Assembly: GCA_011088105.1 (NCBI GenBank)
Contig: JAALKI010000025.1
Span: 1-39,457, forward strand
Length of the DNA: 39,457 nucleotides
Source of the DNA: Nitrospirota bacterium
Lineage (GTDB): Bacteria; Nitrospirota; Nitrospiria; Nitrospirales; UBA8639
Direction: 5' to 3'
Under the pieces are notes generated by a model that saw only the letters and a program-made list of their open reading frames with translations, was not told the origin of the DNA and did not search any database. This document shows, one piece after another, positions 4,529 through 34,804 of this stretch. The translations under genes and the position numbers were made by a program. Position 1 is the stretch's first letter; every line of letters begins with the position of its first letter.

Positions 4529-6052
4529 ATGGAAGATATGAAAAAGTCTACAAAGCAAAGTAAGGTTGTATTGCCTATTCTTTTGAGTGCTTTGATGGTC
4601 TTAATAGTCTGTGGAGGGGTGCTCTTTTTCGTTAAAACACAAAATATCGAACAAGTCGGGGTCGATAAAGCCAAAGCGCTTGCAGATCAAATCACGCTAC
4701 TTCGTACATTTTATACTAAGGAGGTCGTCAGTCGTGCCAAGCGCAACAAGATTCGAGTGAATTACGATTGGAACGAAGATGAGGTCACACTGCCGCTCCC
4801 GGCCACGTTTACCAACGAAGTTGGAGAACGTATTGCGAAAGCTAACCCTGGAACCAGCATTCGGTTATATAGTCGGTATCCCTTCCCTCATCGAAAGCCG
4901 ACAGAAACATATGATCAATTTGAACTGGATGCCTTGGAGCAACTAGAACGCGATCCTCAATCGCCATTTTATCGGTTCGAAACAATCAGCAACAGGTTAT
5001 CGGTCCGTTATGCCATTGCGGATGTGATGCGTCCAGCCTGTGTCGGTTGTCATAACAACCATCCGGAAACGCCAAAAACTGGATGAAAAGTTGGAGACGT
5101 TCGTGGTGTTGTGGAAGTGATCACCCCCGTTGATGAAGTGGAGCATGATCTCTTCGTAGGAACGTTGCTCTTATTGATCATTATTGCCTCCGGGTTTACC
5201 TTGGTGGTTGGGGTGAGTCACTTTTCAATCAAAAAACCACTTCGTGAAACTGTGGGTGTGATGTCATCAACGTCGTCACAAATTGCAGCGACTGTCGAAC
5301 AGTAGGAACAAACCGCCATGCTGCAGTCCGCTTCCATTACACAAACGACCGAAACGATGGAGGGTTTAAGTGTCTCATCGCTACAAGTGGCCCAACAGTC
5401 CGAATCAGCAGCCCATCGGTCGCAACAGGCTTCTCAACTGGCACAAGAAGGCGCTTTGATGGTTCAGCAGGCGATGGATGAAATTCTCAGCATGAAGGAT
5501 CGTGTCCAAGATATTGCCGGGCAAATTAGCCATTTGAGCGATCATACGGGAAAAATTGGGAATATCACGAAACTCGTGAGCGATCTCGCCAATCAGACGA
5601 ACCTTCTGGCATTGAATGCCGCAGTGGAAGCTGCCAGAGCCGGAGAACATGGAAAAGGCTTTGGCGTGGTTGCCGGAGAAATTCGAAAGCTTGCTGACCA
5701 AAGTAAAGCCTCAGCTGAAAAAATCCATACGTTGCTTGAGGATATTCAAAGAAAGACGGATTCGACGGTGTCGGTGACACAGGACGGCATGCATACTGCC
5801 GAACAAGCCGTGCAGATGGCTCGACATGCGGCAGATAAATTCTCCGATGTCCGAGCTGCGCTCGATTTGGCATTAGAAAATGCCCAGCAAATCTCCTTGA
5901 ATGTCAAACAGCAAGCCACGGCGGTCAAACAAGCCGTGGATACAATGAGTTCAATCAGAAAAGGTGCTCAGGAAACAGCCGCTGGATTGCATGAGACACG
6001 TGCGGGGATTCAAACGCTCAATGACGCCGCACACCGGCTGAAAGCCATGTGA
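4529..6052 (+). pseudogene. Methyl-accepting chemotaxis protein with heme-type (Tll0287-like/DUF3365) sensor domain, broken by two in-frame stop codons
   Basis: One frame runs through 508 codons and encodes a complete receptor. It has a membrane helix (~12-33), a periplasmic DUF3365/Tll0287-like domain ending in the c-type heme motif CVGCH (~171-175), a second membrane helix (~207-228), and a cytoplasmic signalling helix hairpin with the conserved tip [19 protein letters not shown]. Two stop codons interrupt it without any shift of frame: TGA at 5084-5086, where the family normally has Trp (PKT-x-W-KVGDVRGV), and TAG at 5303-5305, where Gln or a similar residue is expected (ATVEQ-stop-EQTAM). 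Each needs only one transition from TGG or CAG. As written, translation yields a secreted/anchored heme-type domain alone (185 aa). Re-initiation could make the signalling part (from ATG 5318). A classical HAMP domain is not evident. It heads the che gene cluster. Confidence 0.85.
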
Positions 6053-6267
6053 CGGGCGTCGTGTGCCCACGGCTCGAAGCCTCATGAAATCGACATGTGA
6101 TGATCTGCTAGCCCTTTGGGGCCTGCAGGACAGTGTGGGCGAAGAGCATGAAACAGCAAGGATGTTCATGTCTGGTTCAAGACGTCGATCTTGAGCAATA
6201 GCCAAAAAGCGTGCCAGGAACAGCATGTGAAGCTAGTGATGAAACTCTCTATGAGCTGACTCTCTTC

Positions 6268-7287
6268 ATGATCGCTGAGACCGCTTACCTCATTTTTACG
6301 CTTCGTCATACGCATTACGCAATTGAAGCCAATACGGTGCGTGAAATTGTCTGGCTTCCAGCATTGACCCCTATCCCATCTCTTCCTACTCATTTCGCAG
6401 GCATGCTGAATTATCGTGGTGATCTCATCCCGGTCATTAATTTAGCCAAGCGATTAGGATATCCGTCGGGTACCTTTCACCTCAACGATCGTGTCGTCAT
6501 TTTTGTGTGGAATACGTTAACGGTGGGGGTTATTGTCAATGAAGTTAAAGATGTGCGGGGTATTGCCGAGTCAGAAATTAGTGTGGTGCCCCTTGAGGAA
6601 GTTGGCGTCGACGCACAGCTCCGATTTGTGAAGCACATGGCAAAAGTAGATCAGGAGCTGTTGATGATCATCAACCCCGCCACGGTGATTCATGATGTTG
6701 AAATGATGGCCCCGTCGACTGAAGAACCACTCAAAGAGACAGAAGCATTGTCTTGGCCCACAGTGACGCACGAGGAACAGGTCGTGTTGCAGGAACGAGC
6801 AGTCGCGCTTCAGCAACAGCCAGACCATGAGGACGTATCGGGATGTCTCCCGTTCGCGGTTGTCCAGTTGAATGAAAGTTACCTTGCGGTGGATTTGTCA
6901 TACATTCGAGAGTTCACCGAGGCGCGGCATATGGTACCTGTTCCCTGTTGCCCGGCCTTTGTTGTCGGAAATATGAACTTGCGCGGGGATATCTTGACCC
7001 TGATTGATGTTCGAACAACATTGAATTTCACTCTTCATGGGGGGCATCTTCCAACCAAGGTCATGGTGATCACCTGCGGTCAATTACTGGTGGGCATATT
7101 GATCAATGACGTGCTTGAGTCGATACATGTGAGCCATACCGCGTTGCAACCATTGCCGCTCGCGACCAGTGTGGAAAACGAGCGATACTTGTCGGGCACC
7201 TTTCCGTATCGTGGAGGGCTAGCCAGTATCCTCAATGTGCCAAAGCTCTTGACCAGTGGAGCCATGATGGTAAACGAACAAGAGTGA
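6268..7287 (+). CDS. cheW: Double CheW-domain chemotaxis coupling protein
   Basis: CheW domains link receptors to the CheA kinase. This protein carries two. The first spans about residues 5-150 (YLIFTLRHTHYAIEANTVREIVWLP, then FAGMLNYRGDLIPVINLAKRLG) and the second about 205-335 (LPFAVVQLNESYLAVDLSYIREF, NMNLRGDILTLIDVRTTL). The hallmark NYRGD/NLRGD segments are present in both. The frame is open to a GTG at 6211, but the 19 extra residues do not resemble CheW, so I chose ATG 6268. It lies between the receptor gene and cheA in one direction. Tandem CheW proteins occur in chemosensory clusters that do not control flagella, but function is inferred from domains and context only. Confidence 0.88.
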   Translation: MIAETAYLIFTLRHTHYAIEANTVREIVWLPALTPIPSLPTHFAGMLNYRGDLIPVINLAKRLGYPSGTFHLNDRVVIFVWNTLTVGVIVNEVKDVRGIAESEISVVPLEEVGVDAQLRFVKHMAKVDQELLMIINPATVIHDVEMMAPSTEEPLKETEALSWPTVTHEEQVVLQERAVALQQQPDHEDVSGCLPFAVVQLNESYLAVDLSYIREFTEARHMVPVPCCPAFVVGNMNLRGDILTLIDVRTTLNFTLHGGHLPTKVMVITCGQLLVGILINDVLESIHVSHTALQPLPLATSVENERYLSGTFPYRGGLASILNVPKLLTSGAMMVNEQE

Positions 7288-7335: not shown

Positions 7336-9666
7336 ATGATGATTGAAGATGAAGAAATGCGAGAACTCTTCCGCATTGAAAGCGAAGAGCATCTGCAGCA
7401 CCTCGACGATGGACTGTTGCGGCTTGAAGCCAATCCGCATGATCGGCCAGTCCTAGAAGAAGTCTTCCGTGGGGCCCATAGCCTGAAAGGTGCGGCTCGG
7501 ATGTTGGGTGTGACGGATGTGGAAACTGTTGCGCATTGTTTCGAAGATGTCCTCGGTGCGGCTAAACGTGGAGAAGTTCCTCTGTCCTCAGATTTATTTG
7601 ACGGACTGTATCAAGGGCTCGATAGCATTCGGAAACTAGTTGATGAGGCCATTACGGGAACAATGGCAGGCGTTGATGTGGCGACCTTCTTAGATCGATT
7701 CACTCGAGACTCGGGCCAGTCCCATTCATCTCTCGACACCTCCAATCATGCTCAGGAGACTCTGTCGGTAACAGAGGTGGCTCTCGCAAAGACGTCGGAG
7801 TTGGCAGTCAAAGACGAGGTGCCTCCGGTCATTGAGACCTCAGGGATCACACCACTTCAATTTCCTCCGCAGCCTTCGCAACAATCTTCACCTCGTCCAT
7901 CTTCTCACATGAACACGATCCGTGTGGATTCCAGCAAGTTGGACTTGTTGATGACCCAAGCCGGTGAACTCAAAGTGGCAAAGATTCGTATGGATCTTTA
8001 TGTAGAAAAGGTTTCTCAGCTAGTTGCGCTCTGGGAAGTATGGAATCGAGAGGTCATGCAGAATATGGCGGCAAAAAATGTGGTCGAACAGCCCACGATG
8101 CTCGAGTCTAATATCGCCCAAGAGGGGACAACGCAATCCGAGTATGTCAACCAAATTGGGGACCTGCTTGAGTCATTGGCTCAAGCGACGACTGAAGAAC
8201 ATCGACATTTGGAAACGATTGCGCATGCCCTCGAGGAAGGGATTCGCATGGTACGCTTGCTGCCGCTTTCTACATTGTTTCAGCTGTTTCGTCGCCTTGT
8301 ACGAGACATTGCTCGAGATCTCGGCAAGGAAGTGGATCTGGTCATCAAAGGTGGAGAAACGACTGCAGATAAGCAAATTGTGGAAGAGATGAAAGACCCG
8401 CTCATGCATATAATTCGCAATGCTATCGACCATGGGATTGAGTTGCCGGAAGACCGAGTCCAACGAGGCAAACCTCGAACAGGGACCGTGAGGCTTTGTG
8501 CATATCAGACTGCCACCGAGGTCGTGATCGAAATTCAGGATGATGGGCAGGGATTAAATATGGATGCGATTAAACGGACGGCACTTGAACGACAGGTGTG
8601 TCGAGAAGAAGACCTTGTTGCGATGACACCTGCCGAGATTCAGTCATTGGTCTTTGCCTCCGGGTTTTCGACTCGCGACGTTGTTTCCGGATTATCGGGT
8701 CGAGGTGTGGGCATGGACGTTGTGCGTACTCATGTGGAACAGCTCAAAGGCACCATTCACCTCGATTCCACGCCAGGAAAAGGGTGCATGACGCAGATTC
8801 GTTTGCCGATGACCATTGCCACCACGCCCGTCCTCCTCATTGCCATTCATGGGTATCCCTATGCTCTGCCGTTATTCAATGTGCAGGTGACCTGTCTCAT
8901 TGATCCACACGATATCGACGATCTAGAAGGGAGAGAGATGATCACTCTCCAAGGACAATCTATGGCGGTTGTCCGATTGGCCGGTCTATTAGAGATCAAT
9001 TCGCCACTGCCAGCGCAACAAGCTCTTAGCGCATCAAAAAATAGGGCAGAGGCCATCCCCTGCGTGATCCTTACAGTTGGCAACGAGCAGGTGGCCTGTT
9101 TGGTCGAAGCCTTTCTCGATGAACAAGAGATTGTCATGAAACCACACAATGGGATCTTACAGCGGGTTCGGCATGTTTCAGGCTCGACAATTCTGAGCTC
9201 CGGTGAAGTCTGTATTGTCTTGAACCCACACGATATCATTAATTCAGCAAGGAAAATGTTGGGGCATCGGTCAGCAATAGAAAACATGCCTGTCACCACA
9301 AGGCGAAAGCGGCGTGTCCTGGTGGTCGAAGATTCTTTAACGATTCGGACGCGAGTCAGCCGAATGCTGGAGCATGCAGGCTATGTGGTGGCCAGTGCAA
9401 CAGATGGCTTGGACGCACTCGACCAGATGCAGACCGCTGAATTCGATGTGATACTTTCTGATGTGGAAATGCCTCGTATGGATGGGTTGACGTTGACCAG
9501 AACAATTCGTGAACAATCGGGGGGCCATGTGCCCATTGTGTTGTTTACGTCTCTTTCCACCGAAACTGATAAACAACATGGAATGGAGGCAGGGGCTACC
9601 GCCTATCTGAGCAAGGCCACGTCCAGTGATGCGGAACTGTTGGAGACGATCAGGGGCTTGATATAG
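7336..9666 (+). CDS. cheA: Hybrid chemotaxis histidine kinase CheA with C-terminal receiver domain
   Basis: The 776-residue protein has the modules of a CheA-REC hybrid in order. There is an HPt domain (residues ~5-105) with phospho-acceptor His48 in GAHSLKGAARM. The dimerisation/P3 region follows at ~195-320 and carries a long insertion. The ATPase domain (~325-500) has an N-box (HIIRNAIDHGIE), a DDGQGLN motif and GRGVGMDVV. A CheW-like P5 domain lies at ~500-640 and a receiver at ~652-776 (VLVVEDSLTIRTRV, phospho-Asp in ILSDVEMPRMDG). The attached receiver, as in FrzE-type kinases, suggests internal phosphotransfer or a phosphate sink. A second ATG lies one codon downstream. The stop codon directly abuts the cheB start. 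Confidence 0.94.
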   Translation: MMIEDEEMRELFRIESEEHLQHLDDGLLRLEANPHDRPVLEEVFRGAHSLKGAARMLGVTDVETVAHCFEDVLGAAKRGEVPLSSDLFDGLYQGLDSIRKLVDEAITGTMAGVDVATFLDRFTRDSGQSHSSLDTSNHAQETLSVTEVALAKTSELAVKDEVPPVIETSGITPLQFPPQPSQQSSPRPSSHMNTIRVDSSKLDLLMTQAGELKVAKIRMDLYVEKVSQLVALWEVWNREVMQNMAAKNVVEQPTMLESNIAQEGTTQSEYVNQIGDLLESLAQATTEEHRHLETIAHALEEGIRMVRLLPLSTLFQLFRRLVRDIARDLGKEVDLVIKGGETTADKQIVEEMKDPLMHIIRNAIDHGIELPEDRVQRGKPRTGTVRLCAYQTATEVVIEIQDDGQGLNMDAIKRTALERQVCREEDLVAMTPAEIQSLVFASGFSTRDVVSGLSGRGVGMDVVRTHVEQLKGTIHLDSTPGKGCMTQIRLPMTIATTPVLLIAIHGYPYALPLFNVQVTCLIDPHDIDDLEGREMITLQGQSMAVVRLAGLLEINSPLPAQQALSASKNRAEAIPCVILTVGNEQVACLVEAFLDEQEIVMKPHNGILQRVRHVSGSTILSSGEVCIVLNPHDIINSARKMLGHRSAIENMPVTTRRKRRVLVVEDSLTIRTRVSRMLEHAGYVVASATDGLDALDQMQTAEFDVILSDVEMPRMDGLTLTRTIREQSGGHVPIVLFTSLSTETDKQHGMEAGATAYLSKATSSDAELLETIRGLI

Positions 9667-10725
9667 ATGACGAATGGGCGTATTCGAGTCTTTCTCGTTG
9701 AGGATTCCTTGGTCTGTTTGACCATCCTCAAGCAAATGCTAGCCACATCTCCAGCTGTGGAAGTCGTAGGGACCGCCAAAGATGGCAAAGAAGCCTTGGA
9801 TCTGATTCCGTCCGCTGCCCCGGATGTCATCTGTACGGATCTCGAAATGCCAGTCATGGATGGCTTGGAACTCACCAAAACTCTGATGAAGATCTATCCT
9901 CGAGCAATTTTGGTGGTCAGTAATTATGTACAGAAAGAGGACACTCGTACGATTTTTCAGGTGCTGGAAGCGGGAGCTATTGATGTCTTTCCAAAACCCA
10001 GAGGAGGGAAAACCGAGGACTTTTTGCTGAAGGCACAGGAACTCATTGCCAAAATCAAGATCCTAGCTGGTGTAGTCGTCTTTCGCCGGCAGGAAGATGC
10101 AATGAGCTTACCATCGCTTTCCCTTTCTCAGCCAACGTCACCGTCCCGGTCATCGCGACGGTTTTCGCTGGTGGTTATGGGGGCTTCAACTGGAGGACCG
10201 CAGGCATTCCAGGTAATTTTAACTCGATTGCCGGCAGACTTTCCTGTACCCGTGATCTGCATTCAACATATCAGCGAAGGGTTTTTGCAAGGCATGGTGG
10301 ATTGGCTATCTACCCAATGTGCCATGAAGGTCAAAACGGCTACAGTGGGTACTGTCCCACAACCAGGGGTCATCTATTTCCCAATAGAAGGCATGCATTT
10401 AGAATTAGATGTCAAAGGGGCCTTGAGCTCATCAACGGTCGAAGCCGTCGAAGGGCATCGACCGTCAGTCGATGTGACCTTTCAGTCCATCGCTAAACAC
10501 TGGTATGGGAAATCGGCCATTGGTGTGTTATTGACCGGGATGGGACGTGATGGCGTTGCTGGGCTCAAGACGCTTCGAGAAGCGGGCAGTTTGACAATTG
10601 CACAGGATGAACAGAGCAGTGTCGTGTTTGGCATGCCCAGGCAGGCGATTGAACTGGGGGCAGCGGCACAAGTGCTCCCCTTACAAAAGATTGCCCCAAC
10701 CATCGTGTCAGCGGTGAGCCGATAA
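9667..10725 (+). CDS. cheB: Protein-glutamate methylesterase CheB with receiver domain
   Basis: CheB removes methyl groups from receptor glutamates when its receiver is phosphorylated, giving adaptation. The receiver occupies residues ~1-125 (VFLVEDSLVCLTIL; phospho-Asp in VICTDLEMPVMDG; conserved Lys in FPKP). The methylesterase domain (~165-350) shows the catalytic Ser in GASTGGPQ, the catalytic His in CIQHISEGF and the catalytic Asp in LTGMGRDGVAGL. Length (352 aa) and layout are standard. The ATG follows the cheA stop with no gap. No CheR methyltransferase gene is in the cluster, so the matching methylation activity must come from elsewhere or be absent. Confidence 0.94.
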   Translation: MTNGRIRVFLVEDSLVCLTILKQMLATSPAVEVVGTAKDGKEALDLIPSAAPDVICTDLEMPVMDGLELTKTLMKIYPRAILVVSNYVQKEDTRTIFQVLEAGAIDVFPKPRGGKTEDFLLKAQELIAKIKILAGVVVFRRQEDAMSLPSLSLSQPTSPSRSSRRFSLVVMGASTGGPQAFQVILTRLPADFPVPVICIQHISEGFLQGMVDWLSTQCAMKVKTATVGTVPQPGVIYFPIEGMHLELDVKGALSSSTVEAVEGHRPSVDVTFQSIAKHWYGKSAIGVLLTGMGRDGVAGLKTLREAGSLTIAQDEQSSVVFGMPRQAIELGAAAQVLPLQKIAPTIVSAVSR

Positions 10726-10746: not shown

Positions 10747-12054
10747 ATGGAACAGACCATCCTTCATGCCGATAATCAAGAAATCCTGATTGTGGAAGAT
10801 AGTCCTGTCCAAGCGACTATGTTGAGACGGATCTTGACCCAACATGGATATAAAGCGACGATAGTGAAGCATGGCGGTGATGCGCTGCCAAAGCTTAGGG
10901 AGCATCCATTTGGCTTGGTGATCGGGGATGTGGAAATGCCAGTCATGAATGGCTATGAACTCTGTGTCGCCATTAAAGCGGATGAACAACTTCAGGATGT
11001 ACCGGTCATGCTCCTGACGTCGCTGGCAAGTCCAACGGATTTAATGAAGGGGCTCAATGCGGGCGCTGATAGTTATGTGACCAAACCGTATGATGAAGAA
11101 GTTCTGCTGGCTCGTGTGGGGGCGTTGCTGAAAGATTTTTACCATTCCCCAGAACATGAACAGGAAGAAGTGGTATTTGCGGGAGAGCAGTATACCATTA
11201 CGGCAACTCGTCAGAGAATCTTAAACCTCCTCCTATCGACCTACGAAAATGCAAGACAACAGAATCGAGCCTTGACCAAAGCCCAGGTCGAGTTGACCAA
11301 ACTCAATCAGCAACTTGAAGAAAGCAAACAGGAGTCCGAACAATTGCTGATGAATATCCTACCTAAACCCGTCGCAGAAGAACTCATTGCGTATGGATCC
11401 AGTACTCCGGCGAAATTCGATGATGTATCGATTTTGTTCACGGACTTTATCGGGTTCACAAAAATGGCGGAACAGCTTACTCCACAAGCGTTGATTGATG
11501 AATTAAGTATCTTTTTCAATCACTTCGACACCGTAGTCAAAAAACATCGCTTAGAAAAACTGAAGACAATTGGGGATAGCTACATGGTAGCCGGCGGTCT
11601 GCCAAAACCAACTGTCACGCATCCGATGGATTGCATTCTCGCGGGGTTGGAAATGCAACAATTTCTCATGGCACGGGCTGAGAAGCTAGAAGAAGCCCAT
11701 GCTGTTGCCTGTGGCATGCGAGTCGGAATTCATACGGGGCCGGTGGTTGCCGGTGTGATCGGAAAAGAAAAGTTTGCGTATGATGTGTGGGGAGATGCTG
11801 TCAATCTTGCCAGTCGGATGGAATCATCGGGCGAAGCTGGTCGAATCAATATCTCGTGCGATACCTATGAACGTGTGAAAGATTGGTTTTCGTGTGAACC
11901 ACGTGGAAAGATTCAAGCTAAAAACAAAGGGGAAATGGAAATGTACTTTGTCCATGGCCTCAAACCAGAATTTTCAGAAAAAGGCGAAGGCCTGATCCCC
12001 AATGCGGGATTCCTTCGAGAATACAAACGGGCACAATCTCTTATGAATACCTAA
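10747..12054 (+). CDS. Response regulator with class III adenylate cyclase output domain
   Basis: An N-terminal receiver (~11-130: ILIVEDSPVQATML, phospho-Asp in VIGDVEMPVMNG, TKPYD) is joined by a coiled-coil linker (~150-210) to a class III nucleotide cyclase domain (~220-400). Catalytic features are all visible: the metal-binding Asp residues in LFTDFIGFT and KTIGDSYM, the adenine-selecting Lys in LKTIGD and Asp in YDVWGD, and the Asn/Arg pair in NLASRME. The Lys/Asp pair predicts ATP rather than GTP as substrate, giving cAMP. The gene is 21 nt after cheB, and no separate CheY is present. It is therefore the likely output of the CheA kinase, so receptor state would set cAMP level. Confidence 0.92.
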   Translation: MEQTILHADNQEILIVEDSPVQATMLRRILTQHGYKATIVKHGGDALPKLREHPFGLVIGDVEMPVMNGYELCVAIKADEQLQDVPVMLLTSLASPTDLMKGLNAGADSYVTKPYDEEVLLARVGALLKDFYHSPEHEQEEVVFAGEQYTITATRQRILNLLLSTYENARQQNRALTKAQVELTKLNQQLEESKQESEQLLMNILPKPVAEELIAYGSSTPAKFDDVSILFTDFIGFTKMAEQLTPQALIDELSIFFNHFDTVVKKHRLEKLKTIGDSYMVAGGLPKPTVTHPMDCILAGLEMQQFLMARAEKLEEAHAVACGMRVGIHTGPVVAGVIGKEKFAYDVWGDAVNLASRMESSGEAGRINISCDTYERVKDWFSCEPRGKIQAKNKGEMEMYFVHGLKPEFSEKGEGLIPNAGFLREYKRAQSLMNT

Positions 12055-12201: not shown

Positions 12202-12729
12202 ATGTCACTAATACTAAATATCAGTCCACAGGAAATACTCGGTCGGTGGTATAAAGGCATGCGTATTCTTGAACTAGCTCACCATACCACGGCGGCCGAT
12301 TATAGTCGGCGGCATCGATTATTTGGGACACCTGTCGTGATTGTCTCTACCGTCGTGGGCACGGCAGTCTTTGCCACGATTTCGGAATCGCCACATCCCG
12401 CGATTCAGATTGTGGTGGGCTTGCTCAGTATTACGGCTGGAGTGTTATCCAGCTTGCAGACATTTCTCAATTATCCCGAACTGGCGGAAAAGCATAAAGT
12501 CGCGGCTGTCAAGTACGCCGGGCTTCGTCGGGAAATCGAACAAGTCATGGCCGTTTCATCCTCAGAGCCCGACACCATCCAAGAATTTCTGACATCATTC
12601 CGTGATCGCTGGAATGCCCTTGACGAAGACTCCCCCTCAGTATCTATGCCCGTGTATCGAAAGACCACAGTGCTTGTTGAAGAAGCTGAACGCACCAGAA
12701 TGGAACTCAAAGGCCCCAATCAAACATAA
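12202..12729 (+). CDS. SLATT-domain (DUF4231-like) two-helix membrane protein
   Basis: The 175-residue product has an N-terminal helix (ILGRWYKGMRILELAHHTTAADYSRRHRLFG), two adjacent membrane helices (~48-70 and ~72-92, GTPVVIVSTVVGTAVFATI and AIQIVVGLLSITAGVLSSLQTF) and a cytoplasmic helical tail rich in Ala, Arg and Glu. This pattern, with FLNYPELAEKHKVAAVKYAGLRREIEQ, is that of SLATT proteins. These are predicted pore-forming or membrane-acting effectors often tied to nucleotide-signalling and conflict systems. The KAP NTPase frame starts 2 nt after its stop, so the two formed one transcription unit. The upstream cyclase gene ends 147 nt away in the same direction. Function is predicted from the family, not shown. 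Confidence 0.72.
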   Translation: MSLILNISPQEILGRWYKGMRILELAHHTTAADYSRRHRLFGTPVVIVSTVVGTAVFATISESPHPAIQIVVGLLSITAGVLSSLQTFLNYPELAEKHKVAAVKYAGLRREIEQVMAVSSSEPDTIQEFLTSFRDRWNALDEDSPSVSMPVYRKTTVLVEEAERTRMELKGPNQT

Positions 12730-12731
12730 GC

Positions 12732-13115
12732 ATGGCCAATCCCCGATCATACAACTCCAACCCCCCACATATCATCAGTGATGAGCCGTTGAAGGGCAAT
12801 CTCGAGTTTGGGTTTGACAAATATGCCCAAACGTTGGCTGAGATGGTGGCAAAGAAAACTAACCAGACGCCATTGGTCCTGGGGGTTTATGGCTCGTGAG
12901 GCTCAGGAAAAACGACATTGATGCATGGGATAGAGGCTGAACTTCAGCATATCAATGCAGGATTGAAAGATCGGGATTGGCTGGGAAATGGTGTCTATCG
13001 TCCTACCAAAACCGTGTGGTTTCAGGCTTGGAAATATGCAGAAGAAGACGCCATCCTGGCCGCATTTTCCAAGCCGTTTTACTATGGAACACAACGGTAT
13101 ATCTGTGTCTATTAA
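12732..13115 (+). pseudogene. KAP-family P-loop NTPase remnant with TGA in the Walker A motif
   Basis: KAP NTPases are membrane-associated P-loop ATPases with a very conserved GxWGSGKT Walker A. Here the frame reads LVLGVYGS, then TGA (12897-12899), then GSGKTTLMHGIEAEL, and further on VWFQAWKYAEEDAILAA, the typical second KAP motif. The stop sits exactly at the expected Trp (TGG to TGA, one transition). After FQAWKY...AILAA the family similarity ends and the frame closes at 13115. The gene is therefore also cut short: KAP proteins usually run to 400-600 residues or more. The start ATG is 2 nt after the SLATT gene. No further KAP motifs are seen before the ABC-F gene at 13273. Confidence 0.75.
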
Positions 13116-28136: not shown

Positions 28137-28224
28137 GGAGGGGTGCTAGAGTGGACGAATAGACCGGTCTTGAAAACCGGCGTCGTGCAAGCGACCGTGG
28201 GTTCGAATCCCACCCCCTCCGCCA
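28137..28224 (+). tRNA. tRNA-Ser(UGA)
   Basis: A complete class II tRNA of 88 nt. The acceptor stem GGAGGGG (28137-28143) pairs with CCCCTCC (28214-28220), followed by G and an encoded CCA. The anticodon arm is CCGGT-CTTGAAA-ACCGG with anticodon TGA, reading UCA/UCG-type serine codons. A long variable arm follows, and the T arm GTGGG-TTCGAAT-CCCAC is perfect. The 3' part serves as attachment site of the adjacent integrative element. Confidence 0.97.
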
Positions 28225-29372
28225 ATAAAATCAACAACTTCTGAGTTATCTGGTATAACTTTCTCCTCTTTTAAATCTGAAGGTGTAACCGTAAATGTAA
28301 CCATTTCCTCTCGAAGATAGTCTGCTAGTCTTGTTGCGGCTTCTTTCAGATCCTTCTCATTGGTAATATTGTAACGGTCGAAAACAGAGCGAGTCTTATG
28401 CCCACTGATGCGCATGGCCACGGTTTCTGGGACTCCTGCACGAACCAAGTTGCGCACCCCGTTACGTCTTAAGTCGTGGAAAGTTTTTCCCTTTAAACCA
28501 ATACGACGACAAGCTGCTCTCCAACTATGCTGAAAATCATTGAAAGGTTTGCCATCGTGGTGACAGACATATGGGCAATGCGGATAATTGAGATCCCTTA
28601 ACTGTTTTGCCTTCATCATGACAAACAAGAAGTCACCAGCCATATAAATCACACGTGATTCTTTTGTCTTGGTTTGCTGAGATGCTAGACGGATGCTTCC
28701 TTCTTCCAAATTGACTTGATCCCACCGTAACCCTTTATGACCAATGATCTCACGCTTACGCATTCCAGTATAATAGGCGATTGTCATCGCTACTTTAATG
28801 TGATCAGGTGTAACAGCGCGAAGAGCCAGAAATTCATCGTGTTCAAAGAACCCTTCACGCACATTGTCTTCTCTCAGTTTAGGGAAATGCGGAGTCCGAC
28901 CTACCTTTGGAGGAGTCTGATGAGCACCTAAGACCATCATTCGGTGAAGGCAATCGAGCTCACGATTAATCGTTGCATGGGAGGCAACTTCACTCAATCG
29001 TCTTGAGACATACTCCTGTAGCCGGTCTGTCGTGATAGCCTTGACTCGCATGTTTTGAAATGTTTTTCGAAGATGTACCAGATGTTCTAAGCGGCGAGGC
29101 CATGTCTTGCGACCATTTAAAACATAGTCTCGTCGCAAGTCTTCAATGAGATCTTCAAACTTTGTACGGTGAATGGCCGGACCTTCGTGCTGTCCTTCGG
29201 CGGCCTTACCCTCAGCCTTCTGGAGGGCTCTCTGTGCTTCTCGTTTCTCATACTGCTCTGTACTTCGGTACACGGGCTTGCCCTGATCGTAATATTTCAT
29301 CCACCAGGGACCTGTCGGTTCAAGCTTGCCGGTCTTCGGATTCCTCTTCTTGCGTCGGTATAACATGCCCAT
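28146..29372 (-). CDS. int: Tyrosine-type site-specific integrase whose C-terminus is encoded in tRNA-Ser
   Basis: 408 residues. The N-terminal region (~1-90) is basic with an arm-type DNA-binding look (YRRKKRNPKTGKLEPTGPWWMKYY). A SAM-like core-binding domain spans ~65-165. The catalytic domain (~170-370) shows all key residues: Arg in YYTGMRKREI, His and Arg in FHDLRRNGV, His in SGHKTRSVFD and the nucleophile Tyr in DRYNI. The last ~25 residues (GGGGGIRTHGRLHDAG and onwards) are a read-through of the antisense strand of the tRNA-Ser gene, up to a stop at 28146-28148. In the excised circle this tail could differ. ATG 29372 follows a GAGGTG sequence. Confidence 0.93.
   Translation of the reverse strand: MGMLYRRKKRNPKTGKLEPTGPWWMKYYDQGKPVYRSTEQYEKREAQRALQKAEGKAAEGQHEGPAIHRTKFEDLIEDLRRDYVLNGRKTWPRRLEHLVHLRKTFQNMRVKAITTDRLQEYVSRRLSEVASHATINRELDCLHRMMVLGAHQTPPKVGRTPHFPKLREDNVREGFFEHDEFLALRAVTPDHIKVAMTIAYYTGMRKREIIGHKGLRWDQVNLEEGSIRLASQQTKTKESRVIYMAGDFLFVMMKAKQLRDLNYPHCPYVCHHDGKPFNDFQHSWRAACRRIGLKGKTFHDLRRNGVRNLVRAGVPETVAMRISGHKTRSVFDRYNITNEKDLKEAATRLADYLREEMVTFTVTPSDLKEEKVIPDNSEVVDFIGGGGGIRTHGRLHDAGFQDRSIRPL
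28197..28224 (+). other. Probable attL of the integrative element (3' end of tRNA-Ser)
   Basis: Tyrosine integrases of islands commonly use the T arm and 3' end of tRNA genes as the crossover core, and the integrase gene starts right beside this one. The exact core cannot be set because I found no matching repeat on the right side of the element. Confidence 0.45.
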
Positions 29373-29387
29373 GTGTCACCTCAGTAT

Positions 29388-29570
29388 TTAATCGATTAGG
29401 TCATGAATTTTGACCTTTAAAGCTTTGGCCAATGACCGTAAGGTACTGAGCCTAGGATCAAACGTGCCAGTTTCAATTCGCGCAATAGTGACATGACTGA
29501 CTTTGCTTTTTTTGGCAAGGCCTCGTTGGCTCAATCCTTTTTCTTTCCTACGTTTGACAAGTCGATTCAT
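29388..29570 (-). CDS. XRE-family HTH repressor
   Basis: From ATG 29570 the product is 60 residues and consists of a single Cro/C1-type helix-turn-helix: VKRRKEKGLSQRGLAKKSKVSHVTIARIETG, then STLRSLAKALKV. A frame extension to 29660 exists but overlaps the excisionase-like gene and adds sequence unlike an HTH protein. A perfect palindrome at 29573-29592 lies immediately upstream of this start and is the likely operator, implying autoregulation. There is little room for a Shine-Dalgarno before ATG 29570. The longer form is therefore not excluded. Confidence 0.78.
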   Translation of the reverse strand: MNRLVKRRKEKGLSQRGLAKKSKVSHVTIARIETGTFDPRLSTLRSLAKALKVKIHDLID

Positions 29571-29572
29571 AA

Positions 29573-29592
29573 TGCTAACATAAATGTTAGCA
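29573..29592. promoter_or_regulatory. Perfect palindrome, probable operator of the XRE repressor
   Basis: TGCTAACAT, two A, then ATGTTAGCA: 9-bp arms with a 2-bp centre, touching the repressor start. The size and position match operators of small Cro/C1-type regulators. Confidence 0.6.
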
Positions 29593-29619
29593 CTCTTTTC
29601 TATTTCCAGGCAAGTCCTT

Positions 29620-29814
29620 TCAAGTGAGTTCCTCTTCTTTATGCTTGTCGATGAACTCATTCATGTCCCGAATATCGACATGGACGCGTCCACCAGCCCG
29701 TACTTGCGGTAAGTCCCCGTTCCAAATCAATCGTCGGATTGACCACACTGAGCGGCCAAGATAGATAGCGGCTTCATGAAGAGTGAACAATCGTTTCAGT
29801 TGTTGAGAGTTCAT
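29620..29814 (-). CDS. Excisionase-like helix-turn-helix protein
   Basis: 64 residues with the MerR/excisionase-type (HTH_17) pattern: FTLHEAAIYLGRSVWSIRRLIWNGDLPQVRAGGRVHVDIRDMNEFIDKH. The order is recognition helix, wing (GRVHVDIRD) and closing helix. Such proteins act as recombination directionality factors or regulators of mobile elements. It lies two genes upstream of the integrase in the same orientation, which favours an excisionase role. Confidence 0.8.
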   Translation of the reverse strand: MNSQQLKRLFTLHEAAIYLGRSVWSIRRLIWNGDLPQVRAGGRVHVDIRDMNEFIDKHKEEELT

Positions 29815-29821
29815 GCTTTAT

Positions 29822-29887
29822 CTAGCGATGCCTAGAACCCAAATTGATATTCGAGACTCGCCGCTGACTGAAAATAGGCATGTCTAG
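29822..29887. repeat. Imperfect 12-bp inverted repeat upstream of the excisionase-like gene
   Basis: CTAGCGATGCCT (29822-29833) and AGGCATGTCTAG (29876-29887) are complementary at 10 of 12 positions, 42 nt apart. They could be paired binding sites of a regulator or a weak terminator for the upstream genes. The rest of the gap 29815-29975 shows nothing else. Confidence 0.3.
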
Positions 29888-29975
29888 CCAATGGCTTCCG
29901 CTCCTCCAACATTAATTGGCCTTTCTAAGAGATTGTGCTCGGCATGAATTATTTTGTTGGGATTGACCGCCACGT

Positions 29976-30281
29976 TCACCCTCTTTCTGAGACCACTCGT
30001 CTTACTTTTTCAACCGCTGCTTGAAACCGTGGCCAATCATTAGGCAGGAAAGCCCTATCACACTCATCCAGAGCCTGCAGAACTGGGTGAAATTGCTGTT
30101 CGGTTTTCTCGATCCCGTTAGTTAGGTGGGCGAGCTCTCGCCAAGAGGTGACCCATTGCTCCGGAGTGGGGGGAGGCACCGCCTGGGGTTCTAGGGCCGT
30201 GGCACAGGCCGGACACGATGCCCAATGGATATTGATGACCGCTCCACAAGATGGACAAACACTAACCCCGGCAATGGCCAT
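29976..30281 (-). CDS. Small zinc-ribbon protein of the integrative element
   Basis: 101 residues with a strong AAGGAGT Shine-Dalgarno. The N-terminal CPSCG...CPACA (residues 9-26, spacing 13) is a zinc ribbon. The rest is helical, with PPPTPEQWVTSWRELAHL and a C-terminal DWPRFQAAVEKVRRVV. No family is recognised. Its position between the origin-like repeats and the excisionase-like gene suggests a replication or regulatory accessory role. Confidence 0.65.
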   Translation of the reverse strand: MAIAGVSVCPSCGAVINIHWASCPACATALEPQAVPPPTPEQWVTSWRELAHLTNGIEKTEQQFHPVLQALDECDRAFLPNDWPRFQAAVEKVRRVVSERG

Positions 30282-30295
30282 CGTCTACTCCTTTT

Positions 30296-30483
30296 AGGAA
30301 ACATTGGAGGAAACCACACGTTTCCTCAGCCTCTTTCTGTTTCCACTCCAGGAAACCACCCATCCCAGCGATGGAGAAGGGAATGCTCTTCAACGTTTCC
30401 TGTTTCCTCTGTGCAATTTTATGCTCAGAATTTAGGAAACCTGCCCGGTGCCCAGGAAACATTAGAGGAAACCTCCAGGAACA
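30296..30483. repeat. Cluster of AGGAAAC heptamers in both orientations, candidate iteron origin
   Basis: Exact AGGAAAC occurs at 30296, 30308, 30350, 30434, 30454 and 30466. The complement GTTTCCT occurs at 30320, 30395 and 30402, and near-copies lie at 30339 (GTTTCCA) and 30477 (AGGAACA). That is about 11 copies in 188 bp, in the only sizeable gap of the element, next to the primase-helicase gene. The last copies run into the 3' end of that gene. A replication origin or copy-control region is the most likely role. Confidence 0.65.
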
Positions 30484-32303
30484 CATCCCTGCTTCATTTT
30501 GAACTTGCATGACAATTTCGACGCATATCTTCTGGTAATCCCGATCGCGTTTGCCAGCTCACTTGGCGAAGTCATGCCCTCTTCAAAGAGGGTACGCGCT
30601 TGATCTTCCTTAGAGACTTCCAGCGGCTTCCATACCCAGGAGAGTCGCCCTTGCTGTTCCTGTAACCGGACATCCAGAGAACCCACCTCCTCGCCTTTGG
30701 CTGATCGACATTTGGTAAACCCGAGTTCAAAGTGACAGCCTTCCTTGGGATCGTAATTGGTGGGTGGACTCAATTTGATGACCGTATCGAGTGCATCTTC
30801 ACGGCCGGATGTGCCCCGTTGTTGTCCCCCTTTCCCGCCATGATGCACCAAGACCACGGTGATGCCCCGATGGCGAAGGTGCACCAACCACGCGGCGATC
30901 GGCTCCCAATCCTGTTTGCGATTCTCATCAATGCCGGAGAACAAACAGGAGATGTTATCAAGAATCAGGACACGGAGGGCCGCATCCTCATCGAGAATAT
31001 GTGTGATTTCTTCACGCACCGCTCGATTGGTCAGGACTAAGTCTCGTTGTAAGGTGGTATAGACGTAATGACCTGTGAGAAACCGCAGGGGGGCTTTGGG
31101 CGGTTCCGGAAGTAAAGCGGTCATGCGCGCGCGCAGTTCGCCAAGATCCATTTCCCCATCCACATACAATACCCCCGTGGGTTCTGGCGCTGCCCACCGT
31201 AAAAAGGGAGTCCCCGTGCACAGGCTCGCGGTGAGGGATAAATTAAAAAACGTCTTGCCCACCCCACGAGGGCCGAACGGCATCACGCTGCCACCCACTG
31301 GCAGAAACGAGAACAGACAAGCTCGCTCTGGCACAGCGAGCGAGAGCATTGCGGAATAATCCAGCACGGCCTCTTGTAAGGGCAGGACAGGAGACGGGGT
31401 CATCGCTGACGGTGTCAACGGTTGTTGCACGACATCTGCGTGTTCTTCTGTCGGGGTAGATTCCTTATCGGCGGAAGAAGAAAAATGAGCCGCGTTCTGC
31501 AAGCATTCGAGAAATGCCTCAGGGGTGCCTCCCGCTGTCTTCCAGTCGGTCCAATCGTTCGAACCTTCAGGCACAGACAGCTGCTTGATCTCGCCGACTT
31601 TGTCTTCCAACCACTGCCCGCATTTCTCGACATACGTGTGACCCGTAAGGTCATTATCTCCACTCAGATATATCGTGTGTTTGCCATGCAACGGCACTAA
31701 CACGTCAGCGCGGATGGCGGATTCGCCGGTGTACGGCGTCGTCGCAAAGACTTCTTCGAGTCCTAACGCGTCAAGCATCGCGTTGAGGGTGTCCTGGTCA
31801 CGTTCTCCGGCGCAAAGAATAATGGCCGGGGCTTGGGCCATACGGTCCAGATTCCGACAGGTGGGCTGACAGGGGCCTAATCCTGAAGTCTTCCCTTCCG
31901 AATCTTGACTCCAGCTAAACTTGTTTCCGCATGACCATCGCAGGTGCCAGGCTACCTGGCCGTGGTGATCTGTCCACTGATACCGACGAAGGATTCGTCT
32001 TTGAGAAGAGTGTAATGCCGGTTTCAATTGGAAGCTTTCTAGTAACCAGGTATTGGCAGCAGCAAATGAACACTGTCTCACTATTTGGACCAGTGCAAAA
32101 ATATCTGCCCCTTTGTTCCCAAAACATTCCTGCGACCAACAAAAACCCCGGTCCTGCCGGAGCTGGACCGAAGGATTCCGATCACCATTATTGTGTCGCT
32201 CCGGTTGTAAACAATGCCAATACCCATTGGTCCCTTGTCGTCCTCCTAATGCCTGATAGACGGTTTCGATGGACACGCGTGCTTTCAGCTCATTGGCGGT
32301 CAT
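30462..32303 (-). CDS. Primase-helicase of the integrative element (CHC2/TOPRIM-like plus RepA-type ATPase)
   Basis: 613 residues in three parts. The N-terminal ~90 residues hold a CHC2-like zinc finger (WHCLQPERHNNGDRNPSVQL, FCWSQECFGNKGADIFALV). Residues ~100-270 contain a TOPRIM-like region (AIILCAGERDQDTLNAML, IYLSGDNDLTG). Residues ~330-560 form a RecA-like replicative helicase of the RepA/AAA_25 type: Walker A FGPRGVGKTFF, VLYVDGEMDLGELRARM, VLILDNISCLF and VVLVHHGGKGGQQRGTSGREDALD. A C-terminal HTH (TSPSELANAIGITRRYASKL) may bind the nearby repeats. It overlaps the upstream CHC2 gene by ATGA. GC content seems higher than in the host genes. Confidence 0.85.
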   Translation of the reverse strand: MTANELKARVSIETVYQALGGRQGTNGYWHCLQPERHNNGDRNPSVQLRQDRGFCWSQECFGNKGADIFALVQIVRQCSFAAANTWLLESFQLKPALHSSQRRILRRYQWTDHHGQVAWHLRWSCGNKFSWSQDSEGKTSGLGPCQPTCRNLDRMAQAPAIILCAGERDQDTLNAMLDALGLEEVFATTPYTGESAIRADVLVPLHGKHTIYLSGDNDLTGHTYVEKCGQWLEDKVGEIKQLSVPEGSNDWTDWKTAGGTPEAFLECLQNAAHFSSSADKESTPTEEHADVVQQPLTPSAMTPSPVLPLQEAVLDYSAMLSLAVPERACLFSFLPVGGSVMPFGPRGVGKTFFNLSLTASLCTGTPFLRWAAPEPTGVLYVDGEMDLGELRARMTALLPEPPKAPLRFLTGHYVYTTLQRDLVLTNRAVREEITHILDEDAALRVLILDNISCLFSGIDENRKQDWEPIAAWLVHLRHRGITVVLVHHGGKGGQQRGTSGREDALDTVIKLSPPTNYDPKEGCHFELGFTKCRSAKGEEVGSLDVRLQEQQGRLSWVWKPLEVSKEDQARTLFEEGMTSPSELANAIGITRRYASKLSCKFKMKQGCVPGGFL

Positions 32304-33463: not shown

Positions 33464-34804
33464 GTGATGTGGGGCTACAATGCTGTCACAGCTGGGGATG
33501 GTGAAGACGCTCTCAAAAAAATTAAGCAAGAATCTCCTGATCTCGTGTTGCTAGATTTGGAACTGCCTCAATTGCCTGGGCTCGATGTATTGAAGCAGAT
33601 GAGAATAAATCCAGGAAATGAGGCGATGGAAAAACTAGGGGTGTATCAGTTGGTTGATCCTCCTGTGATTGTCATGACAGCCTATGGTGATATAAAAACA
33701 GCCGTCGATGCGATGAAATTGGGAGCCTATGATTTTCTAACCAAAACCTTTAACTTTGAACACTTGTCCGTCCTCATTCAACGGAGCATTGAACAAACCT
33801 CTCGTTTAAAACAGGCGGAACACCTGGATCAGGAGATCAATGATCGCTATGGCACCATTGTGAGAGAAAGTCCTTCTATGAAAGCGGTAGTAGATGAGGC
33901 TCAAAGAGTAGCCAGCACATCCGGAAAGGTCCTCCTCTTGGGGGAAACAGGAACAGGAAAAGAGATTCTCGCAAGGCATATTCACCGGTGGAGCAATCGT
34001 CATGCTGGTCCCTTCATGGCGATTAACTGTTCAGCATTCACAGAAGACCTCCTTGAGAATGAACTGTTTGGTCATGAAAAAGGTGCCTTTACAGACGCCA
34101 AGGAAAGACAGAAGGGAAAGATTGAGGCGGCAAATGGAGGAACCGTGTTTTTGGATGAGATTGGGGATATGCCCACTCAACTACAGGGTCGGCTTCTACG
34201 ACTCCTTCAGGATCAAGAATTTTATCGAGTAGGAGGTACGACCCCCATCCAAGTGAATGTGCGCTTTATTGCAGCGACCAATAAGGACCTCAATAAATGT
34301 ATTGACGAAGGAACGTTTCGAGAGGATCTTTTTTATCGTCTGAACATTTTCTCGATTACCGTACCTCCACTTCGCACGCGGGTAGAAGAAATTCCTAAAC
34401 TGGTCAGACTTTTCTTAGCCCGACAGCAAAAGAGAGCCCTTCGATTAAGCCCTTCGGCTCTGGAGGCCATGATGCAGTATCATTGGCCAGGAAATATTCG
34501 TGAACTTGAAAATGTCTTAGAAAGGGCTGCGCTCTTAAGTCAGGGAGACGAAATCTTACCGAAGGACTTGAGATTACGGGAAGGAGAATCACAGAGTCCC
34601 CAAGAATCAACGCCCTTGATGCATATCTCCTCCTATCGGGATTCTATGGACAGTCATAGCCGTTTTTTGTTGTGGGAAGCACTCAAACAAACCGGATGGA
34701 ACCAAACCAAAGCTGCAGAGGCCTTGAAAATTCATCGGTCGTATTTTGTCCGACTGATGAAACGCCTGAGAGTTCCGAGTTCACCTCCCATTCCATCAAA
34801 ATGA
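33464..34804 (+). pseudogene. Sigma-54-dependent response regulator (NtrC family) lacking the start of its receiver
   Basis: 446 codons. The receiver begins at its alpha1/beta2 region (WGYNAVTAGDGEDALKKI). The phospho-Asp in LVLLDLELP and the VMTAYG and LTKTF segments are present, but beta1 and the acidic metal-binding pair that normally precede residue 1 are missing. The AAA+ domain (~130-370) is intact: Walker A GETGTGKEI, the sigma-54-contact loop GAFTDA (usual GAFTGA), and Walker B TVFLDEIGD. The C-terminal Fis-type HTH is TGWNQTKAAEALKIHRSYFVRLMKRLRV. An in-frame stop (33461) lies just upstream, at the border of the integrative element. Phosphorylation is probably lost, so activity, if made, would be constitutive or dead. 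It converges with the histidine kinase gene. Confidence 0.85.

Follow-up and report, generated by a model that had tools for sequence, protein, structure and literature searches.

A gene cluster for a chemosensory pathway was identified in a draft genome from the Nitrospirota, in a stretch of 39,457 nucleotides, which was analysed at its full length and is referred to here as the window (Table 1). The genome, which is probably a metagenome assembly, consists of 2.6 Mb in 70 contigs and is 97.6% complete. Translation of the frame at 4529-6052 (plus strand), which codes for a methyl-accepting chemotaxis protein (MCP), gave 508 codons, the terminal TGA stop included, and revealed only two internal stops, TGA at codon 186 and TAG at codon 259. 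This confirmed the original prediction of a chemoreceptor frame broken by these two codons. With the TGA at 5084 and the TAG at 5303, an uninterrupted frame linking the sensor to the signalling domain is not present. The domains and the receptor tip had been described as otherwise intact, and this was also found, with PF11845 located 5' of the TGA, PF00015 located 3' of the TAG and the tip conserved.

Table 1. Features of the interrupted receptor gene and its operon.
Feature	Position	Strand	Evidence
Receptor 5' part, codons 1-185: first TM segment and most of the Tll0287-like (DUF3365, sCache_heme) sensor, with CVGCH	4529..5083	+	PF11845 53.3 bits, model 2-116/144; open frame
In-frame TGA, codon 186	5084..5086	+	TGG (Trp) in 8/8 orthologues
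Inter-stop stretch of 72 codons: sensor domain end, second TM segment, linker leading into the signalling helix	5087..5302	+	Hydrophobic stretch in translation
In-frame TAG, codon 259	5303..5305	+	CAG/CAA (Gln) in 8/8 orthologues
MCP signalling domain, hairpin tip intact, normal TGA end; possible 244-aa ORF from ATG 5318	5306..6052	+	PF00015 125.5 bits
Gap at the place of cheR in relatives	6053..6210	+	158 bases
CheW-like protein, frame intact	6211..7287	+	PF01584 164.5 bits
CheA-type hybrid kinase (Hpt, HATPase, CheW, REC), frame intact with catalytic motifs	7336..9666	+	Domain matches; motifs by eye
CheB (REC and methylesterase), frame intact, GASTGG kept	9667..10725	+	Domain matches; motif
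Response regulator with adenylate/guanylate cyclase domain	10747..12054	+	PF00072 and PF00211; counterpart with 62% identity at this place in G011

Several other features were identified in the window. Just downstream of the operon lies the remnant of a KAP P-loop NTPase gene (12731-13112, plus strand), the Walker A motif of which is interrupted by an in-frame TGA at 12897. The remnant is truncated, its hydrophobic continuation is located in another frame by an apparent frame change, and it is clearly an ordinary, older pseudogene. A SLATT_4-type membrane ORF (12202-12729) adjoins it. The region 28137-32303, in which a tRNA-Ser(UGA) stands beside a phage-type integrase gene (28146-29372, minus strand) and an AAA_25 ATPase gene (30462-32303, minus strand), is probably an integrated element. 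A sigma-54 response regulator (33464-34804, plus strand), in the receiver domain of which roughly 21 positions at the start of the model are missing, is possibly truncated or wrongly started.

The Tll0287/DUF3365 family (PF11845, sCache_heme) has been described as a Cache domain with covalently bound heme c (PMC12889525, a 2026 preprint). The heme insertion sits between strands 3 and 4, members fused to signalling domains show NO-sensor properties, and complete stand-alone domains are common (PMC12889525); the structures cited there are 5B82 (Tll0287) and GSU0582/GSU0935. When the TGA is read through, the receptor matches the whole PF11845 domain (67.6 bits, model 2-144/144). In the fragment before the TGA the match ends at model position 116, so that positions 117-144 are missing and the final strands would be absent. 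The CXXCH heme-c motif is present as CVGCH at codons 171-175, with C171, C174 and H175 invariant in a six-sequence alignment, and the sensor fragment stops just past it. The suggestion that the sensor part alone would still be a heme-type protein thus held for the motif, which is kept, and was weakened by the loss of the domain end after the heme insertion; judged from these matches, a working stand-alone heme protein from the fragment is doubtful. The ligand of the intact receptor was presumably NO. Six other matches to PF11845 were identified in the genome by profile search, all of them without stops.

The gene was compared with relatives in the family, for which 49 genomes were available, and a full-length orthologue was identified in eight besides the present genome (G009, G011, G013, G025, G031, G066, G067 and G070; 58-66% protein identity). 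None of the eight contains an internal stop, and the closest one was shown to be intact by tblastn. Codon 186 is TGG in all eight, and codon 259 is CAG in six and CAA in two, so that the expectation of Trp and Gln at these sites was borne out, and intact homologues with sense codons at both stops are available, as is found for nonsense pseudogenes. This implied that each stop arose by a single G:C-to-A:T transition, G to A in the first case and C to T in the second. The absence of frameshifts, which had also been claimed, was upheld against the eight orthologues, the only length difference being an in-frame one of two residues compared to G009. Both the two domains and the identity of about 58-66% to the eight relatives continue past the two stops, far more than chance would give. 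No other relative of the same genus was present among the genomes searched, and a scan of contigs revealed distant relatives only.

In the relatives checked, cheR sits between the MCP gene and cheW. At this place in the present genome no recognisable cheR remnant was found within 6053-6210, and CheR (PF01739) had no match anywhere in the 97.6%-complete genome, so that a CheR for the methylation of this methyl-accepting chemotaxis protein was not identified. The receptor gene is also the only match to PF00015 in the genome by profile search, and the CheA-like kinase core of the operon is the only one found. The remaining components are well preserved: the N and G motifs of the kinase, the Hpt histidine motif, the GASTGG motif of CheB and the metal region of the cyclase were all identified by eye. 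The response-regulator cyclase is the probable output of the pathway. Across the family, one MCP was counted in G009 and two to nine in most other genera, while in one genus, represented by 14 small genomes, neither MCP nor CheR was found over the cut-off. In G009, no cheA match was identified beside the MCP gene, and a run of N follows there. In G031, the cheR gene of the orthologous operon (L062, G031:C95, about 8129-8131, minus strand) contains an in-frame TGA at a position where the relatives have Arg (WAF*KVD) and is otherwise intact. Provided that both assemblies are correct, this pathway has been hit by nonsense changes more than once.

Programmed readthrough or a reassignment of stop codons would yield the full receptor from the interrupted frame. 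The two stops stand for Trp and Gln, residues which can be inserted by near-cognate readthrough, and in the nearby KAP remnant a TGA is likewise located at an expected Trp; however, this remnant is also truncated and shifted, and in G031 cheR the residue lost to the stop is Arg, a third amino acid. Moreover, two different stops would both need to be read, and the anticodons UCA and CUA are both absent from the tRNA genes found, the one Trp tRNA among them carrying CCA. Of 42 tRNA matches in the genome, all but one were named by ARAGORN, and the unnamed weak match (C27) has the anticodon CAU and is not a suppressor; the list is incomplete, since Gln-UUG was not found although CAA is frequent. 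Ordinary genes of the window end in TGA or TAG, among them those for CheW, CheA, RuvA and an ABC-F protein, and 185 long frames were unbroken in a sample consisting of the window and about 399 kb scanned elsewhere. On these three grounds, the tRNA list, the normal gene ends and the unbroken frames, recoding of TGA as Trp or by a TAG suppressor was rejected, and we regard readthrough in general as extremely improbable.

The age of the stops was approached by comparing the constraint on the gene. With G011 as outgroup, 57 lineage-private amino-acid changes were counted in the MCP of the present genome versus 31 in G009. Eleven control genes of the window gave 252 versus 111 private changes (Fisher p = 0.44 against the MCP), and this like excess implied that the difference belongs to the genome rather than to the receptor gene. 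An old pseudogene with a raised rate was therefore rejected, since the excess vanishes against the control genes. Within the inter-stop stretch of 72 codons, conserved sites had changed at 2 of 25 in the present genome versus 3 of 26 in G009. Had codon 186 been the end of translation for a long time, this stretch would have drifted, which argues that the stops are recent or not real. The two stops themselves are a poor clock, as a count of mutational chances made them compatible with about 5 to 190 neutral substitutions. The location of both stops in the MCP gene rather than elsewhere in the operon had a probability of p = 0.04, which is no proof of selection on the other operon genes.

The normal constraint along the whole gene, the stretch between the stops included, would also be expected if the draft assembly had introduced the stops as errors of the consensus or had taken them from a minority strain, with the receptor intact in the living population. 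The division of the assembly into 70 contigs and the fact that all differences are single-base ones agree with this. However, two independent errors would be required in one gene, and the loss of CheR is an independent sign of decay. In addition, a coding-potential scan of three other contigs and part of a fourth, about 399 kb, gave as top candidates for interrupted genes what by inspection look like ordinary same-frame neighbours; the detector used is imperfect, as it ranked the TAG of the MCP gene high and the TGA not. An artefact of this kind is therefore considered unlikely, although it is the main alternative to a recent pseudogene.

A further possibility is a functional split of the receptor, in which a shortened heme protein would stay in the membrane and a soluble MCP signalling domain would be started separately at ATG 5318. 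This codon lies 12 bases past the TAG and opens the 244-aa ORF, and the tip of the signalling hairpin was shown by alignment to be conserved. However, its ribosome-binding (anti-Shine-Dalgarno) energy of -4.2 is equalled or bettered by 44% of the ATGs of the window, and the 72 codons, which would be non-coding after a split, are still conserved. Positions 117-144 of the model are missing from the sensor fragment, and a split receptor was found in none of the eight relatives. We consider a functional split very unlikely. In this genome, in which CheR was not found, three sites with Glu in every one of the eight relatives have changed to Gln (E289Q, E306Q and E327Q). These changes could mimic a methylated receptor. 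That signalling through CheA and the cyclase continues from a split receptor in the absence of methylation, with E289Q, E306Q and E327Q mimicking a permanently modified receptor, is given hardly any probability.

The original prediction had left very recent decay, a consensus error and readthrough side by side. Decay by transitions, of very recent date, has the best support, from the two G:C-to-A:T changes, the absence of indels and the lack of a rate excess over the control genes, while readthrough found no tRNA to read the stops and is opposed by the ordinary genes that end in TGA and TAG. The missing CheR and the lack of a second MCP in the genome, the independent nonsense change in G031 cheR and the KAP pseudogene next to the operon also speak for decay. 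We consider it probable that the gene became a pseudogene recently, by nonsense mutation, in a chemosensory pathway that is decaying and was already without its methyltransferase. Given that neither frameshifts nor a rate excess were found, decay is visible in the sequence only as the two stops. At low indel rates, a young pseudogene may well be free of indels, and relaxed constraint would not yet have to show in a very recent one.

In the ancestral state, the gene would have coded for a membrane-bound chemoreceptor, the periplasmic sensor of which was a heme-c Cache domain of the Tll0287/DUF3365 family, of the NO-sensor type. This receptor would have signalled into the CheW/CheA/CheB pathway, with the response-regulator cyclase as the likely output. 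Since CheR and other MCPs are gone from the genome, the adaptive pathway was probably of declining value by that time. Two separate G:C-to-A:T transitions would then have created the in-frame stops, and the receptor would now be in the course of being lost. According to this order the methyltransferase presumably was lost before the receptor, and a functional receptor is presumably no longer made. The intact frames of CheW, CheA, CheB and the cyclase suggest that the pathway may still be of some use. The locus would thus be a snapshot of pathway loss, in which the methyltransferase is gone and the last receptor has only just acquired its stops, with kinase, coupling protein, esterase and cyclase still readable. 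For annotation this implies that a heme protein and a soluble MCP would be listed here, neither of which is likely to be a working receptor.

Compared to the sCache_heme chemoreceptors described in PMC12889525, the receptor has the same design, with a PF11845 domain containing CXXCH (here CVGCH) that is extracytoplasmic between two TM segments and fused to an MCP domain. In contrast to these, the present copy is broken by two stops, and the binding of heme and NO is a prediction here. With its eight orthologues the gene shares homology over the full length and, in seven of them, the gene order MCP-(cheR)-cheW-cheA-cheB. However, seven orthologous operons have kept cheR, as an open frame in six and with the one TGA in G031, and in none of the eight is the MCP gene interrupted by internal stops. 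Like bacterial nonsense pseudogenes in general, the gene acquired its stops by single-base transitions and has lost a partner of its pathway, and it differs from them in that indels are still absent and an excess in rate is undetectable.
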